10,112 nucleotides of DNA from Deltaproteobacteria bacterium (GTDB taxonomy: Bacteria; Bdellovibrionota_F; JAHFAK01): positions 1-10,112 of the forward strand of contig JAHFAK010000043.1 of the NCBI GenBank assembly GCA_023250585.1. The letters run 5' to 3'. This document shows, one piece after another, positions 1,020-9,257 of this stretch; within the stretch, counting starts at the first letter, position 1, and the number at the start of each line of letters is the position of its first letter. The notes below the pieces were generated by a model. That model searched no databases. It was not told where the DNA came from and worked only from the letters and a program-made list of their open reading frames with translations. Position numbers and translations under genes: made by a program.

Positions 1020-1386
1020 TCTAACAACGATTTTTGTGCTTCTCGTATTTTTATCCTCTTGCTCTCCCTTTCATGGAAAATTTCCTGGATATATAAAGAA
1101 AACGGAGTCTTTCAGGAATCAGTATGAAGTTCTCGGAAGATTTGATGTTTCAGCCCGAAGATATTGGGGAGTTTTTACATTGGTAAAATTACATGAACCA
1201 AATATTGAAGAGCTTACTCGAGAAGAAATTGCTAGACTCGGGGGAGATGCTGCTATTGAAGTGGAAATAGAATCAGAATTTGATGGCTGGGATATGTTAC
1301 TGATTGTTCCTATGATTTTTACTCTTTTTGGCTCAAGCAGGGATATGCATATTACCGGCACCGTTATAAAGTATAGGAACCTCTGA
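994..1386 (+). CDS. Small lipoprotein, second of a tandem paralogous pair
   Basis: The product is 130 residues with a basic N-terminus (MKQRRKRNN), a hydrophobic core and the lipobox FLSSC (Cys 23), indicating lipid attachment. The mature part parallels the preceding protein: SPFHGKFPG after the Cys, a VLGRFDVSARRYW segment, GGDAAIEVEIES, a hydrophobic stretch (LLIVPMIFTLFG) and a terminal ITGTVIKY. The pair therefore arose by duplication. Its ATG lies inside the upstream gene in another frame, with GGAAAGG about 12 bases before it. The last codons and the TGA stop (1384-1386) lie inside a palindromic repeat (1375-1462), so the native C-terminus may have been replaced when the repeat inserted: the first paralogue runs about nine residues further after the shared VIK(F/Y). 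Function unknown. Confidence 0.8.
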   Translation: MKQRRKRNNLTTIFVLLVFLSSCSPFHGKFPGYIKKTESFRNQYEVLGRFDVSARRYWGVFTLVKLHEPNIEELTREEIARLGGDAAIEVEIESEFDGWDMLLIVPMIFTLFGSSRDMHITGTVIKYRNL

Positions 1387-1462
1387 AAAAGGCCCATCTG
1401 CATCGTTGCATCTGGATCTTTTTGAGAGGTTCCCTAAAACACAAGTTTTTCAGAGGGCCTCT
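1375..1462 (+). repeat. Palindromic repeat, copy A (internally deleted)
   Basis: The arms 1376-1391 (GGAACCTCTGAAAAAG) and 1418-1433 are inverted copies with one mismatch. A tail containing a further arm-like AGTTTTTCAGAGGG reaches about 1457-1462. The whole unit is related to the reverse strand of 5636-5788: 1375-1408 matches 5786-5753 at 31 of 34 positions, and 1408-1457 matches 5688-5639 at 42 of 50. The 64 bases at 5689-5752 are missing here, so this is the short form of one dispersed family. It supplies the stop codon of the upstream lipoprotein gene. It encodes no protein. Confidence 0.8.
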
Positions 1463-4825: not shown

Positions 4826-5629
4826 TTAATTGATTTTTAGCCGTACCCCTTTGAGAATCATGTATGATCCACCGGCCACAACTACAATAGCAGCTCCACT
4901 CGGTAAATTAAAAAAGTACGATAACCATAACCCCGAAAGAGTAAATACAAGGCTAATAAAAAAAGAGCACACCATAATTTTCCGAATACTTTGGGAAAAA
5001 ATATTTGCAATGGTAACGGGAATAGTAATAAGAGCAATTAAGAGCAGCGCTCCCATGACTTGTATAAGCATAACAACGGTAATAGCAATCAAAAGAAGTA
5101 GAATAGTATAGAGCGCATGAACAGGAATACCACGTGTTCGAGCATATTCTCGATCATATGAAATTGCCTGGAATTGTTTGAAAAAAAAAGTTACAAAAAA
5201 AAGAATAATGAGATCCCATGCAAGCATAAAAGAAAGATCTTGTGAAGAAACAGTGAGAATACTTCCAAACAGATAGCTCATCAAATCAGGCGCATAGCCG
5301 GGGCTTAACGAAATAAATATACTGCCAATTGCCATGCCTAAAGCCCAAAGAATACCAATGATAGTATCTTCTCTTTCGTTGCCCTGACAATCCATCCATC
5401 CTAATCCTAACGCAGATAATAGACTAATGCTACTTGCGCCAATTAAGGGGTTAAAGCCCAGATAATAAGCAGCTCCAAGGCCTCCAAAAGCAATATGAGC
5501 AATTCCTCCGCTAATAAAAACTATACGGTTAATAACCACATATGTGCCAATTATACCACAAGCAATACTGACAAGAATTGCAGCAAGAATCGCATGTTGA
5601 ATAAATTCGTATGTAAGAAGATCTATCAT
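4826..5629 (-). CDS. znuB: Zinc/manganese ABC transporter permease (ABC-3 family)
   Basis: The 267-residue integral membrane protein belongs to the ZnuB/MntB/TroC (ABC-3) family, which forms the inner-membrane channel of metal-ion importers. About eight hydrophobic segments are visible. The family signature region appears near the N-terminus (VVINRIVFISGGIAHIAFGG, about residues 30-49), followed by REDTIIGILWALGMAIG (about 85-101). The C-terminal part (PSGAAIVVVAGGSYMIL) is also typical. The length is normal. The start is ATG 5629-5627, with AGAGGG nine bases upstream inside the tail of a palindromic repeat. It is the last gene of znuA-znuC-znuB, but a 157-bp gap filled by that repeat separates it from znuC. 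The ion is probably zinc, judged from its partners, although manganese cannot be excluded. Confidence 0.93.
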   Translation of the reverse strand: MIDLLTYEFIQHAILAAILVSIACGIIGTYVVINRIVFISGGIAHIAFGGLGAAYYLGFNPLIGASSISLLSALGLGWMDCQGNEREDTIIGILWALGMAIGSIFISLSPGYAPDLMSYLFGSILTVSSQDLSFMLAWDLIILFFVTFFFKQFQAISYDREYARTRGIPVHALYTILLLLIAITVVMLIQVMGALLLIALITIPVTIANIFSQSIRKIMVCSFFISLVFTLSGLWLSYFFNLPSGAAIVVVAGGSYMILKGVRLKIN

Positions 5630-5635
5630 ATTTTA

Positions 5636-5788
5636 GAACCCTCTGGAAAACTCGTCTTTTAAGGAATCTCTCAAAAAGGTAGAGATGCAAGGCGAAGGTA
5701 AAAGCACAACCGGAGCATACTCTGGTAGTATGTAAGGATGTGGTTTTACCTTCAACGACGCAGATGTGCCTTTTTCAGAGATTCCTTT
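5636..5788 (-). repeat. Palindromic repeat, copy B (full-length form) between znuC and znuB
   Basis: Terminal inverted arms 5661-5679 and 5769-5787 (19 bp, one mismatch) enclose a second inverted pair, 5695-5708 with 5739-5752 (13 of 14). Inside that is a small CATACT/AGTATG stem, so the whole core can fold into one long hairpin. A 25-bp tail (5636-5660) continues the similarity to copy A at 1375-1462, which lies in the opposite orientation and lacks the middle 64 bases. The element starts right at the znuC stop codon and its tail ends six bases before the znuB start. It contains no transposase or other believable gene, so it is a non-autonomous dispersed repeat. Confidence 0.85.
5639..5644 (-). 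promoter_or_regulatory. Ribosome binding site of znuB, inside the repeat tail
   Basis: AGAGGG on the minus strand is followed by nine bases and then the znuB ATG (5629-5627). The same CAGAGGG string is present in copy A of the repeat (1451-1457), so this translation signal belongs to the repeat sequence itself. Confidence 0.6.
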
Positions 5789-6542
5789 AATGTTTCTTCA
5801 AAACTTTATGTGGCAAGCCATGCGCCAACAACTCTATAGGACAGTTATACGTTTTCAAAATATCTTCTTCGGTAACTTCACCAGAACGATGACAATAGAG
5901 ATATCTATTTAAGCATCCAATTTTATTAACGTTCTCTGAAATTGCAGTAAGATCATGCGTAACGATAATAATAGGAATTTTTTTATTGAGATCTTTTAAA
6001 ATATCATACAAGCCTTTTTCCATTTCGGTATCAATACTCGCCGTTGGTTCATCCATAATGAGGAGAGCAGGGTTTGATACCAATGCTCGAGCAATAAGAA
6101 CACGCTGCAATTGACCACCTGACAATTCCCCAATTTGCCTATGCATATACGAAGACATGGATACGCTTTCGAGAGCTCCTTCTATAGAATGCGTGGGGCT
6201 GGATTCTTTCTTTTTGAATATATGTGCCTTCAGACATCCCATCCTAACAACTTCGTGGACATTTATAGGAAAATCTCGATATCGCTCAGTCGATTTTTGA
6301 GGAACATAGCCAACAGAAGATCGTACTGATTCCGGACGCTTCCCAAAGAGAAAAATATTTCCTCGAGATGGTTTTAAAAGTCCTAAGATAAGTTTGACCA
6401 ATGTTGTCTTGCCACCTCCATTAGGTCCAATAAGCGCTAAAAAATCTTCTCGATACAGCGCCAAATTAATTTCATCTAAAACAGGTTGCCTCTTATAGGT
6501 AAAATACACATTTTGTATTTCGAGAATTGGTTCATTATTCAT
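5787..6542 (-). CDS. znuC: Zinc/manganese ABC transporter ATP-binding protein
   Basis: The 251-residue cytoplasmic ATPase powers the metal importer formed with the neighbouring permease and binding protein. All ABC motifs are present in order: Walker A GPNGGGKTT (39-47), Q-loop Gln 82 (GYVPQ), signature LSGGQ (140-144), Walker B LLIMDEP (160-166) and switch His 196 (VTHD). The C-terminal tail CPIELLAHGLPHKVL is typical of ZnuC-type metal importers. Length and motifs are complete. Its ATG (6542-6540) overlaps the end of znuA by 8 bp, with no clear Shine-Dalgarno sequence, so translation is probably coupled to znuA. The stop codon (5789-5787) sits at the very edge of the palindromic repeat. Confidence 0.95.
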   Translation of the reverse strand: MNNEPILEIQNVYFTYKRQPVLDEINLALYREDFLALIGPNGGGKTTLVKLILGLLKPSRGNIFLFGKRPESVRSSVGYVPQKSTERYRDFPINVHEVVRMGCLKAHIFKKKESSPTHSIEGALESVSMSSYMHRQIGELSGGQLQRVLIARALVSNPALLIMDEPTASIDTEMEKGLYDILKDLNKKIPIIIVTHDLTAISENVNKIGCLNRYLYCHRSGEVTEEDILKTYNCPIELLAHGLPHKVLKKH

Positions 6543-7404
6543 AGAGTTTTAAGTATTCAACAAATGTTCGTAAACTTTTAGTATACTCTTGTGCTAACGG
6601 ATCAATCGTAACTACACTAGCATTAATTTCTTTGGCGATCAACGATGCCTGTTTAATACTAAATTGAGGTTCTATAAAAATAGCTTTTAGATTTTCTTTA
6701 CGAGCTCTATCAATGATCTGTTTCATGTGCTCAATGCCTGGTTCTTTTCCTTCAACTTCAATAGATACCTGTTCTAAATTATAATCAGCGGCAAAATATC
6801 CCCAGGAAGGATGAAATACAAGGAATTGACGTTTTTTGAGAGGTTCCAATTTTCTTTTTATTTCTTCATCGAGCATTTGTAGTTCATGAATTAAAGACAC
6901 ATAGTTCATTGTATAATACTCTTTATTGTTACTATCAACGTTAATCAAAGCTTCGTAAAAATTTTTTACTTGAATCTGCAATAAACGAGGCGATAGCCAC
7001 ATATGTGGATCACATTGATTCATTTTTCCATGACCATGAGAGGTTCTTCTCAAATGTATGCCTGCTGAGCTATCAATAATTTGAGGACCATTGTGCATTG
7101 AAGAAACTTTTTGTATCCATTGACTCTCGAAAACAAAAAGTCCTCCCAGCGTTACCCAAAGCATTGACCTTTGGAGCTTAAGCAAATCTTTTGGTTTAAT
7201 TTCAAAATGTTCTGCCGACGCAAACGGAGGAAGAAGAATAAAAATATCCGCTTTAGTACCAACGATTTTTTCAATATAATACGCTTGCGGAGGAAGCGAA
7301 CACGTAATAATAGGTTTCGAACTTTTATAAGAAGTATCATCAAAGCAAGAAATCAAAGGAAAAATGCACAGAAAAAAAATAATAGCATGCTTGAATATAG
7401 TCAT
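6535..7404 (-). CDS. znuA: Zinc/manganese ABC transporter substrate-binding lipoprotein
   Basis: The 289-residue protein is the metal-binding component (cluster A-I, ZnuA/TroA fold) that captures the ion in the periplasm and delivers it to the permease. A signal peptide ends in LISC (Cys 20), so it is lipid-anchored. The expected ligands are present: His 66 (SAEHFE), His 134 (DPHMW), His 198 (VFHPSWGY) and an acidic residue near the end (Asp 268 in TIDPL, possibly with Glu 245). A short His-containing loop (SHGHGK, 122-127) lies just before the second ligand. It is much shorter than the His-rich loop of classical zinc-specific ZnuA proteins, which leaves some doubt between zinc and manganese. 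It is first in the operon. A possible promoter (minus-strand TTGAAT 7455-7450, TCTAAT 7430-7425, 19-bp spacer) would draw its -35 from the repeat at 7439. No convincing Zur box was seen. Confidence 0.93.
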   Translation of the reverse strand: MTIFKHAIIFFLCIFPLISCFDDTSYKSSKPIITCSLPPQAYYIEKIVGTKADIFILLPPFASAEHFEIKPKDLLKLQRSMLWVTLGGLFVFESQWIQKVSSMHNGPQIIDSSAGIHLRRTSHGHGKMNQCDPHMWLSPRLLQIQVKNFYEALINVDSNNKEYYTMNYVSLIHELQMLDEEIKRKLEPLKKRQFLVFHPSWGYFAADYNLEQVSIEVEGKEPGIEHMKQIIDRARKENLKAIFIEPQFSIKQASLIAKEINASVVTIDPLAQEYTKSLRTFVEYLKLYE

Positions 7405-7438
7405 AAATATGATACTCTTATTTTATTAGATTAATAAA

Positions 7439-7560
7439 TACTAAATTGCATTCAAAATGATAACGAGGCGGCAAGGAGGAAGCAACGTAAGCGTATATAA
7501 TAATACGCTGAGGAGCTTTCGACGACGCCAACGAAGTTAGCGTTTGAATGCAATTTAGTA
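7439..7560. repeat. 122-bp inverted-repeat element between znuA and the TPR gene (MITE-like)
   Basis: Perfect 18-bp terminal inverted repeats (7439-7456 and 7543-7560, TACTAAATTGCATTCAAA and its complement) enclose an 86-bp interior. Its centre forms another palindrome: GCGTAT (7491-7496) and ATACGC (7504-7509). The interior is GC-richer than its surroundings and has no coding capacity. It fills the gap between divergent genes and runs 13 bases into the TPR reading frame. The central TATAAT (7496-7501) could act as a -10 box, but no good -35 precedes it. It is not related to the repeats at 411-532 or 5636-5788. Confidence 0.8.
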
Positions 7561-9257
7561 AGAGGTATTATTTATTGAAGCCTGACAAGAGTCAACTTAT
7601 AGCTAAAGCCCAAGAGTACATTCAGGCAGGCGAGCCAAAAAAAGCACTAGCCCATCTCAAAGATTATTTTCAACAAAACCCGCATGATTATGAAATACTA
7701 AAACTTCTCGCTCAGGCATTTCTCGACCTCAAACAGCTTGAGAAAGCAAAGTTTATCTACAATGAAGCGGTGAGGATTTTGGAAGAAGCGGGAAAAACAG
7801 AAGAGAAAGAATCTCTTTTAAAAGAAATATCAAAACTTCTGTATCCTCAGAAGGAAGAAGAAATTGTTGTTCCTGAAATGAGTGGATTAAAGGAACTCAA
7901 TGATCAAGAAGAAGAAGATAAATCTCATATTTCTAAAGTAATCAATGAAGCAGATATTTTTATGAAATATGGCCTTCCCGAAAAAGCGATTTCAAACTTA
8001 AAGGAAATTGTTGAAGAGGAACCCGACAATATTGAAGCACATAGCAAACTCAAAGAAATATATGAAAAGACGTCCAATGTTGCGAGCTTAAAAAGTGAAT
8101 TACTCATCCTCAGTGATATTGCTGCCAAAGGAGGAAAAACTGATTTACAAAAACAATACCTCGATAGCCTTTCGTTAATCGATCCTGATAATCAGGAAGT
8201 AAACCTTCGCCTCAGTAAAATTGACCTCCAAAAAGAACAATCGATCCAAGAGCCGATTGTAAAGGAACCACAGAGTATGCACCATAAAGAATCTAAAGAA
8301 GAGATTAGCCTTGGTCTTGATGTCCTCGATGAATTACAAGAGTCGTATGAACTCTTGAAAAAAGTCAATGATCATTCGTCAGCTCCCAATATTATTCTTA
8401 ATGAAATTGAAAAAAGTTTGGCGGGAGAAAAAAAACCCACAGGGCTTAAAGTTGAACTTGAAAATTTTATGGGGCATGAAGACCCAACGGCAAAAGAGCC
8501 GGAGACAATGTCATATAAGAAAGGCCTTCGTGCGCAAGCCATTTCTTCGGAAGAAGTACAAGAAGGACTCAGAGAGCTTCAATTTTTTATTAATAATTCA
8601 ATGACAAAAGAAGCTCATGAAATATTAGAACATTTACTAAAAAAATATCCCGATAACAGCGAAATTCAAAATTATAAAATAAAATTGAAAGATCAAAAAA
8701 AGGAACATGATAATTATATAAATCTTGGATCTTTTTTAGAAGAAAAAGAAAAGCAGGAAATTCAAACCGTTGAAAGCTTGATCAGTCAGTTCAAACAGGG
8801 AGTGCAAAAGGCTATTCCAGAAGGGGATGCGCTTTCCCATTATAATCTGGGAATAGCGTATCTTCAAATGGAACTTACCGATTCTGCCATAGAAGAATTA
8901 AAATTGGCAGAAAAGTCAGAAGAAATACATTATAATGTCCATTGCCTTTTGGGATTCTGTTACGAAAAAAAAACAGATTTTCATAACGCCCTCCATTACT
9001 ATAAAAAAGCAATTGAAAAACGAGGAATAGCTTCTGAACAAAAAATCGATCTTTTTTATAGAGCAGCCCTTTGCTCATTATCTCTTAACGATCAGCAATC
9101 TGCTCAGCTGTATTTTAAAAAAGTATACCTTTTAAATGCGCAGTACAAAGAGCTTCCGCAGTATATAAAAAAATTGAATCTTTCTAAAGATATTTTAGAA
9201 AAAGATACATCCGATAGTTCTGTAAGTGAGATAAGCAAAAAGATAAGCTTTATTTAA
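7548..9257 (+). CDS. Tetratricopeptide-repeat protein
   Basis: The 569-residue protein has no signal peptide or membrane segment and is made of helical TPR blocks joined by charged linkers. Clear TPR-like groups are about residues 20-90 (AGEPKKALAHLKDYFQQNP), 130-196 (YGLPEKAISNLKEIVEEEPDN), 335-380 (TKEAHEILEHLLKKYPDN) and 426-545 (LSHYNLGIAYLQMELTDSAIEELKLAE, then two more). The C-terminal block, ending LNAQYKELPQYIKKL, resembles long TPR proteins of delta-proteobacteria. TPRs bind proteins, so a cytoplasmic scaffold role is likely; the partner is unknown. The ATG at 7548 lies within the terminal repeat of the element at 7439-7560 and lacks a good ribosome binding site. TTG 7575 in the same frame has AGAGG nine bases before it and may be the true start, giving 560 residues. 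The gene converges on the next one with 13 bp between stops. Confidence 0.9.
   Translation: MQFSKRYYLLKPDKSQLIAKAQEYIQAGEPKKALAHLKDYFQQNPHDYEILKLLAQAFLDLKQLEKAKFIYNEAVRILEEAGKTEEKESLLKEISKLLYPQKEEEIVVPEMSGLKELNDQEEEDKSHISKVINEADIFMKYGLPEKAISNLKEIVEEEPDNIEAHSKLKEIYEKTSNVASLKSELLILSDIAAKGGKTDLQKQYLDSLSLIDPDNQEVNLRLSKIDLQKEQSIQEPIVKEPQSMHHKESKEEISLGLDVLDELQESYELLKKVNDHSSAPNIILNEIEKSLAGEKKPTGLKVELENFMGHEDPTAKEPETMSYKKGLRAQAISSEEVQEGLRELQFFINNSMTKEAHEILEHLLKKYPDNSEIQNYKIKLKDQKKEHDNYINLGSFLEEKEKQEIQTVESLISQFKQGVQKAIPEGDALSHYNLGIAYLQMELTDSAIEELKLAEKSEEIHYNVHCLLGFCYEKKTDFHNALHYYKKAIEKRGIASEQKIDLFYRAALCSLSLNDQQSAQLYFKKVYLLNAQYKELPQYIKKLNLSKDILEKDTSDSSVSEISKKISFI

Follow-up and report, generated by a model that had tools for sequence, protein, structure and literature searches.

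Mobile repeats are known to carry promoters, terminators and RNase sites. Bacterial MITEs, such as Nezha, Correia/NEMIS and MITEAba12, are ~150 bp long, have terminal inverted repeats and short direct duplications, contain no transposase and are present in tens of copies. BIME, ERIC, Correia and BOX repeats sit in operons and change the fate of the mRNA, and 36 genes take their stop codon from BOX (PMC3049150). It has also been reported that Geobacter genomes are rich in intergenic palindromes (PMC2700814 and PMC2996986).

Here, we analysed a window of 10,112 nucleotides (the whole of the stretch studied; contig JAHFAK010000043.1 of a Deltaproteobacteria bacterium), in which a palindromic element, copy B, lies between genes reading as znuC and znuB (Table 1). 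The family to which it belongs resembles the above MITEs in each of the features listed, and differs from them in its asymmetric tail joined to a palindromic core, its strong preference for stop codons and an outward terminus that is similar to a Shine-Dalgarno sequence. Like BOX, RUP and SPRITE of Streptococcus pneumoniae, it consists of interspersed folded repeats that extend operon transcripts, a comparison made by description only; BOX, in contrast, is modular (A/B/C), and the passages of PMC3049150 consulted describe no supply of a Shine-Dalgarno sequence by it. The likeness to the multicopy palindromic intergenic sequences of Geobacter, which are also abundant and grouped in families (PMC2700814 and PMC2996986), is again one of description and not of sequence.

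Several known classes were considered and rejected. REP/REPIN repeats with RAYT (Y1) are also extragenic palindromes, but the present family has target duplications and a longer unit of ~150 nt with conserved arms, rather than one of 20-40 nt with a head tetranucleotide. An origin from RAYT/REP was rejected as well, four Y1_Tnp matches being present in the genome with no element within 1.5 kb. Integron attC sites are similarly imperfect palindromes located right after stop codons; the elements studied here lack RYYYAAC...GTTRRRY ends, are dispersed rather than arrayed in cassettes and have 4-bp target duplications. Rfam covariance models gave no match, either at the gathering threshold or at E 1.

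Table 1. Features of the znu region and of the repeat copies in the window
Feature	Position	Strand	Remarks
Copy A, internally deleted family member (85 bp)	1376..1460	-	end provides the TGA stop of ORF 994-1386
znuB-like permease (ABC-3)	4826..5629	-	PF00950, E 4.7e-73; ATG 5629-5627
Left target-site duplication TTTA	5632..5635		adjoins the tail end of copy B
Copy B, full-length MITE-like palindrome (150 bp)	5636..5785	+	covariance model 152.9 bits, model positions 1-151; tail towards low coordinates, core towards high ones; runs antisense to znuCB
Tail of copy B	5636..5662	+	outer terminal repeat (GAACCCTCTGGAAAACTC) and spacer
AGAGGG, predicted znuB Shine-Dalgarno	5639..5644	-	9 nt from ATG; paired GAGG 10 nt from ATG
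Left core arm	5663..5679	+	GGAATCTCTCAAAAAGG
Right core arm	5769..5785	+	CCTTTTTCAGAGATTCC; complement of left arm, one mismatch
Right target-site duplication TTTA	5786..5789		holds the znuC TAA stop (5789-5787, - strand)
znuC-like ATPase	5787..6542	-	PF00005
znuA-like binding protein	6535..7404	-	PF01297, E 6.4e-57

The repeat family and its relatives

Relatives of copy B were found by BLAST in ~24 places of the host genome, and a covariance model built from 22 aligned copies located ~42 distinct places, after reverse-strand self-matches had been taken out by eye. These copies form two subfamilies with one plan, a tail (the outer terminal repeat and a short spacer) followed by a palindromic core of 120-125 bp. 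The terminal inverted repeats are the outer GGACTCTCTGAAAAAC and inner GGAACCTCTCAAAAAGG versus the right end CCTTTTTCAGAGGTTCC. The left flank of each copy was compared with its own right flank, using mispaired flanks as a control. In the first set, 9 of 21 copies had exact 4-bp target duplications (1.65 expected), as did 8 of 42 at one fixed register for both subfamilies (1.07 expected); some copies of the second subfamily may have 5-bp duplications. This excess is a signature of transposition. With terminal inverted repeats, a fixed short (4 bp) target duplication and ~42 dispersed ~150-bp copies that lack a transposase gene, the element behaves like a MITE in every testable respect except for a named parent: among the DDE_Tnp_1 and Y1_Tnp genes examined, the two DDE_Tnp_1 genes of the host have no matching ends. 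The target duplication and the number of copies bear out the proposal of the preliminary description that a mobile repeat has been inserted in the znu operon.

Other copies are located between genes that read, by sequence naming only, as rpsC and rplP (L004, C27:22535-22683), pgk and tpiA (L017, C4:8708-8860) and sdhC and sdhA (L158, C45:4565-4717). One locus (L258, C45:1813-1830 plus flanks) is a miniature of ~35 bp, which comprises only the tail of the second subfamily and its inverted copy (GGGTATCTCTAAAAACATAGTTATTAGAGATACCC).

Outside the host, the covariance model matched seven of the other genomes (241 searched), all of them related only at the domain level. No element was found in the single other genome of the phylum in the set, and the plasmid records searched gave no match. 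In one of the matching genomes (G171), 31 places of related palindromes were examined. These copies have no recognisable tail; their core follows the same plan, down to the conserved imperfections of the stem. A Syntrophobacteraceae locus with a 118-nt gap was considered as a parallel insertion and ruled out, having no model match.

The insertion between znuC and znuB

For the znuA-znuC-znuB-like operon, most of the best NCBIfam matches are to ABC systems for zinc or manganese, every one scoring under its curated cut-off (znuB is below every equivalog cut-off), and its metal specificity is likely zinc/manganese. As the preliminary description had stated, the repeat sits between the znuC stop and the znuB start; its limits are now refined to those given in Table 1, with a TTTA on each side. 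The flanking sequences are TTTAATG on the right and ATTTTA on the left, yielding the TTTA direct repeat, although a 4-bp flank match arises at any single site in ~8% of cases by chance. Removal of copy B together with one TTTA gives znuC-TAA-AAT-ATG-znuB with a gap of 3 nt. Such spacing is similar to that of znuC-znuB relatives, in which the start lies no more than 25 nt from the stop in 37 of 40 loci and overlaps it in 26. TAA-AAT-ATG was probably the empty site before insertion, a reconstruction made by joining the flanks, the genomes compared including just one other member of the phylum. An alternative znuB start within copy B was ruled out, the in-frame upstream codons being AAT and then TAA.

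We consider it fairly probable that copy B is a non-autonomous MITE-like insert at the znuC stop, which ended stop-start coupling and gave znuB a substitute ribosome-binding site. Before the insertion, the two genes would have been 3 nt apart and znuB, with no clear Shine-Dalgarno sequence at this joined site, would probably have relied on ribosomes ending znuC. The element would have entered TAAA at the znuC stop, where the duplication kept the stop intact, and would have set 157 nt and a stable hairpin between the two genes. Its outward tail end would place GAGG ahead of the znuB ATG, most likely loading ribosomes there, and initiation of znuB would likely be freed from ribosomes completing znuC. 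The preliminary description had proposed that the repeat lowers or uncouples permease output relative to the ATPase; uncoupling is what should follow from a 3-nt gap becoming one of 157 nt, since stop-start coupling would thereby be lost. The replacement motif is moderate, so that the output of ZnuB could be lower than, equal to or higher than before.

The long hairpin that had been noticed on the transcribed strand was confirmed by folding. It reaches -55.8 kcal/mol versus -36.1 +/- 4.1 for shuffled sequences (z -4.8), and the element alone has z -6.0. Such a stable structure on the mRNA might suggest an attenuator or RNA-processing site, with transcription ending in part at the hairpin, or an RNase cutting there, and less permease than ATPase as a result, as described for BIME, ERIC and Correia. 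The A5 and T5 runs that flank the core stem in the consensus also fit this idea, and precedents have been reported for other repeats (PMC3049150). Nevertheless, we regard it as unlikely: no intrinsic terminator (a G+C-rich stem followed by a U run) was found in the element, the stem of copy B is broken beside the U run (pair 50:138 is G-G), and a sister copy is located between the rpsC- and rplP-reading genes, a place at which a strongly polar element would hardly be tolerated. Between 5500 and 7700, a terminator-like site is present only at 7298-7282 on the - strand. Neither a terminator nor a promoter beyond chance was detected at the znuC-znuB junction.

Tails as predicted ribosome-binding sites

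Predicted pairing with the anti-Shine-Dalgarno sequence before znuB is -6.3 kcal/mol with copy B and -1.4 kcal/mol for the joined flanks; the usual anti-Shine-Dalgarno sequence was assumed here, a 16S gene being absent from the assembly. Among control 20-mers, ~11% pair as strongly as -6.3 kcal/mol. A consensus tail of the subfamily in the place of copy B would give -3.2 kcal/mol, so that the deviation of copy B strengthens the motif. It was previously claimed that AGAGGG is part of the conserved repeat tail. The tail is indeed conserved, but AGAGGG is a minority variant found in 4 tails of this subfamily, whose weaker consensus AGAGAG is present in 10. In a longer fold, AGAGGG pairs with the znuB start and its unpaired probability is near 0. 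An RNA switch masking the Shine-Dalgarno sequence was also considered; the local hairpin (-7.2 kcal/mol) was matched by 15% of shuffles and was dropped as evidence. It is most likely that AGAGGG/GAGG of the tail serves as the ribosome-binding site of znuB.

In eight elements with a recognisable tail, including copy B, a reading frame of 80 codons or more starts 2-12 nt past the tail. The downstream genes include livM (after livH), lysC-like, endonuclease III-like, QueG-like and cell-wall hydrolase genes, znuB, and a GntR regulator after a gene reading as an ABC permease (livH, livM, lysC and ABC-permease were named from sequence and Pfam family). All eight tails have a predicted pairing of -6.3 to -9.6 kcal/mol, each better than its own joined empty site (+1.9 to -6.8). 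In the seven that were measurable, the stop-start distance of the joined site is -8 to +7; at livH/livM (C48:23883-24032) the joined site is an overlapping TAATG, which became the duplication. Counted on the sequences themselves, GAGG lies 7-10 nt from the start in 6/8 and 15-16 nt from it, a long spacing, in 2/8 (L161 and L162). Solo tail remnants were searched for additional cases and none was close to a start.

The two subfamilies differ in this respect. Second-subfamily tails generally carry the motif GAGGT(G), with a mean of -8.1 kcal/mol, versus -3.7 kcal/mol for first-subfamily tails, in which the motif is absent save for the AGAGGG variant (-6.3), and -1.5 for random 16-mers. A pairing of -6 kcal/mol was reached by 8/8 tails near a start and by 11/27 others (Fisher p 0.003), a difference that is partly owed to subfamily, as the second-subfamily tail always carries the motif. 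At least seven sister copies at other gene junctions, mostly of the second subfamily, appear to have made the same replacement, and supply of a predicted ribosome-binding site is supported as a property of the family. With regard to the earlier suggestion that the repeat may have become a working part of metal uptake, these data favour the part concerning translation, as the tail gives the best Shine-Dalgarno-like sequence for znuB and seven other copies are alike, and not a part as terminator or promoter.

On the other hand, copy B might be a tolerated passenger at a site where the damage is small. Its Shine-Dalgarno-like motif would then be a chance feature of the terminal repeat, with znuB still translated via reinitiation or other weak initiation. 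The motif is present in the terminal repeat of many copies away from gene starts, copy B, at 83% to the consensus, is one of the full-length copies that have diverged furthest, as an old neutral insert would have done, and the orientation bias described below suggests avoidance of harm. We give this explanation a low probability: 157 nt and a hairpin of -48 kcal/mol should make ordinary reinitiation unlikely, copy B departs from the consensus in the direction that strengthens the motif, and strong pairing is found in 8/8 near-start tails versus 11/27 of the others.

Stop codons, strand and orientation

The stop codon of a flanking reading frame lies at the boundary of 22 of the 42 elements in the host genome. 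Among control sites in the stretches examined (4-mers of like kind, either outside coding sequence or overlapping a stop), 6.5% overlap a stop, or 12.4% when the 80 nt before genes are left out. The difference from these controls gives p values of 1e-15 to 5e-10, which are guides only, the reading frames being mechanical calls and the copies non-independent. Elements likewise adjoin stop codons in genomes outside the phylum. In G171 (L205-L251), the stop is at the core end in 18/31 and at the other end in 1/31, i.e. in one orientation (18:1). Such adjacency would fit either a target preference or selection, which are not separable in these data.

In all copies tested (38/38 in the host and 15/15 in G171), it is always the same strand of the core that forms the more stable fold, by a mean of ~12 and ~7.5 kcal/mol, respectively. 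This constant asymmetry in two unrelated genomes suggests a step that involves recognition of one single strand. Where the neighbouring genes are co-directional, the mRNA carries the weaker-folding strand in 17:7 cases in the host genome and 24:4 in G171 (41:11 combined; p 4e-5; the tallies, 17/24 and 24/28, were counted by hand). Copy B follows this rule, the operon mRNA having the weaker-folding strand. This bias is most simply read as a disadvantage of strong hairpins in the mRNAs of operons, and on that reading the hairpin is unlikely to be what is useful; a mechanism that inserts the element in one orientation would account for it as well. The previously proposed recruitment of the hairpin itself, for example to stabilise one side of the mRNA, finds no support; the bias points to avoidance of hairpin strength on the mRNA. 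For a REP-like protector of the 3' end of the znuAC mRNA, with znuB left to itself, one may note that the element adjoins the znuC stop, as many REP-like repeats do, and that 22/42 copies are placed likewise. However, the presence of the weaker-folding strand in operon mRNAs of both genomes is contrary to a strong 3' barrier, and we consider this role very unlikely.

Returning to the insert as a source of a substitute ribosome-binding site, a broader and more tentative possibility is that this palindromic class is widespread and inserts preferentially at stop codons, favouring one orientation, and that in this lineage the outward terminus acts as a portable ribosome-binding site, by which tight gene pairs would be made independent without killing the downstream gene. 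A ribosome-binding site brought by the repeat end, as appears to be the case here, would explain how elements can occupy tight operons (for the uptake of zinc or of branched-chain amino acids, among others) while the downstream gene stays active. The eight junctions would provide natural before/after cases for weighing translational coupling, and the question is raised of how, in genomes that are unrelated, the element gets onto stop codons. The literature was searched for MITEs with a terminus that gives a Shine-Dalgarno sequence and nothing was found, which is weak evidence in view of its limited coverage.

Two additional palindromes are present in the window. A different 124-bp palindrome family (~40 copies in the genome) is represented at 7436-7562, where it fills the divergent promoter region between znuA and a TPR gene and includes the first ATG (7548) of the TPR frame. 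A third palindrome, at 411-532 between an ispG-like fragment and the next frame, has 49-nt arms that are 92% complementary and a 24-nt loop.
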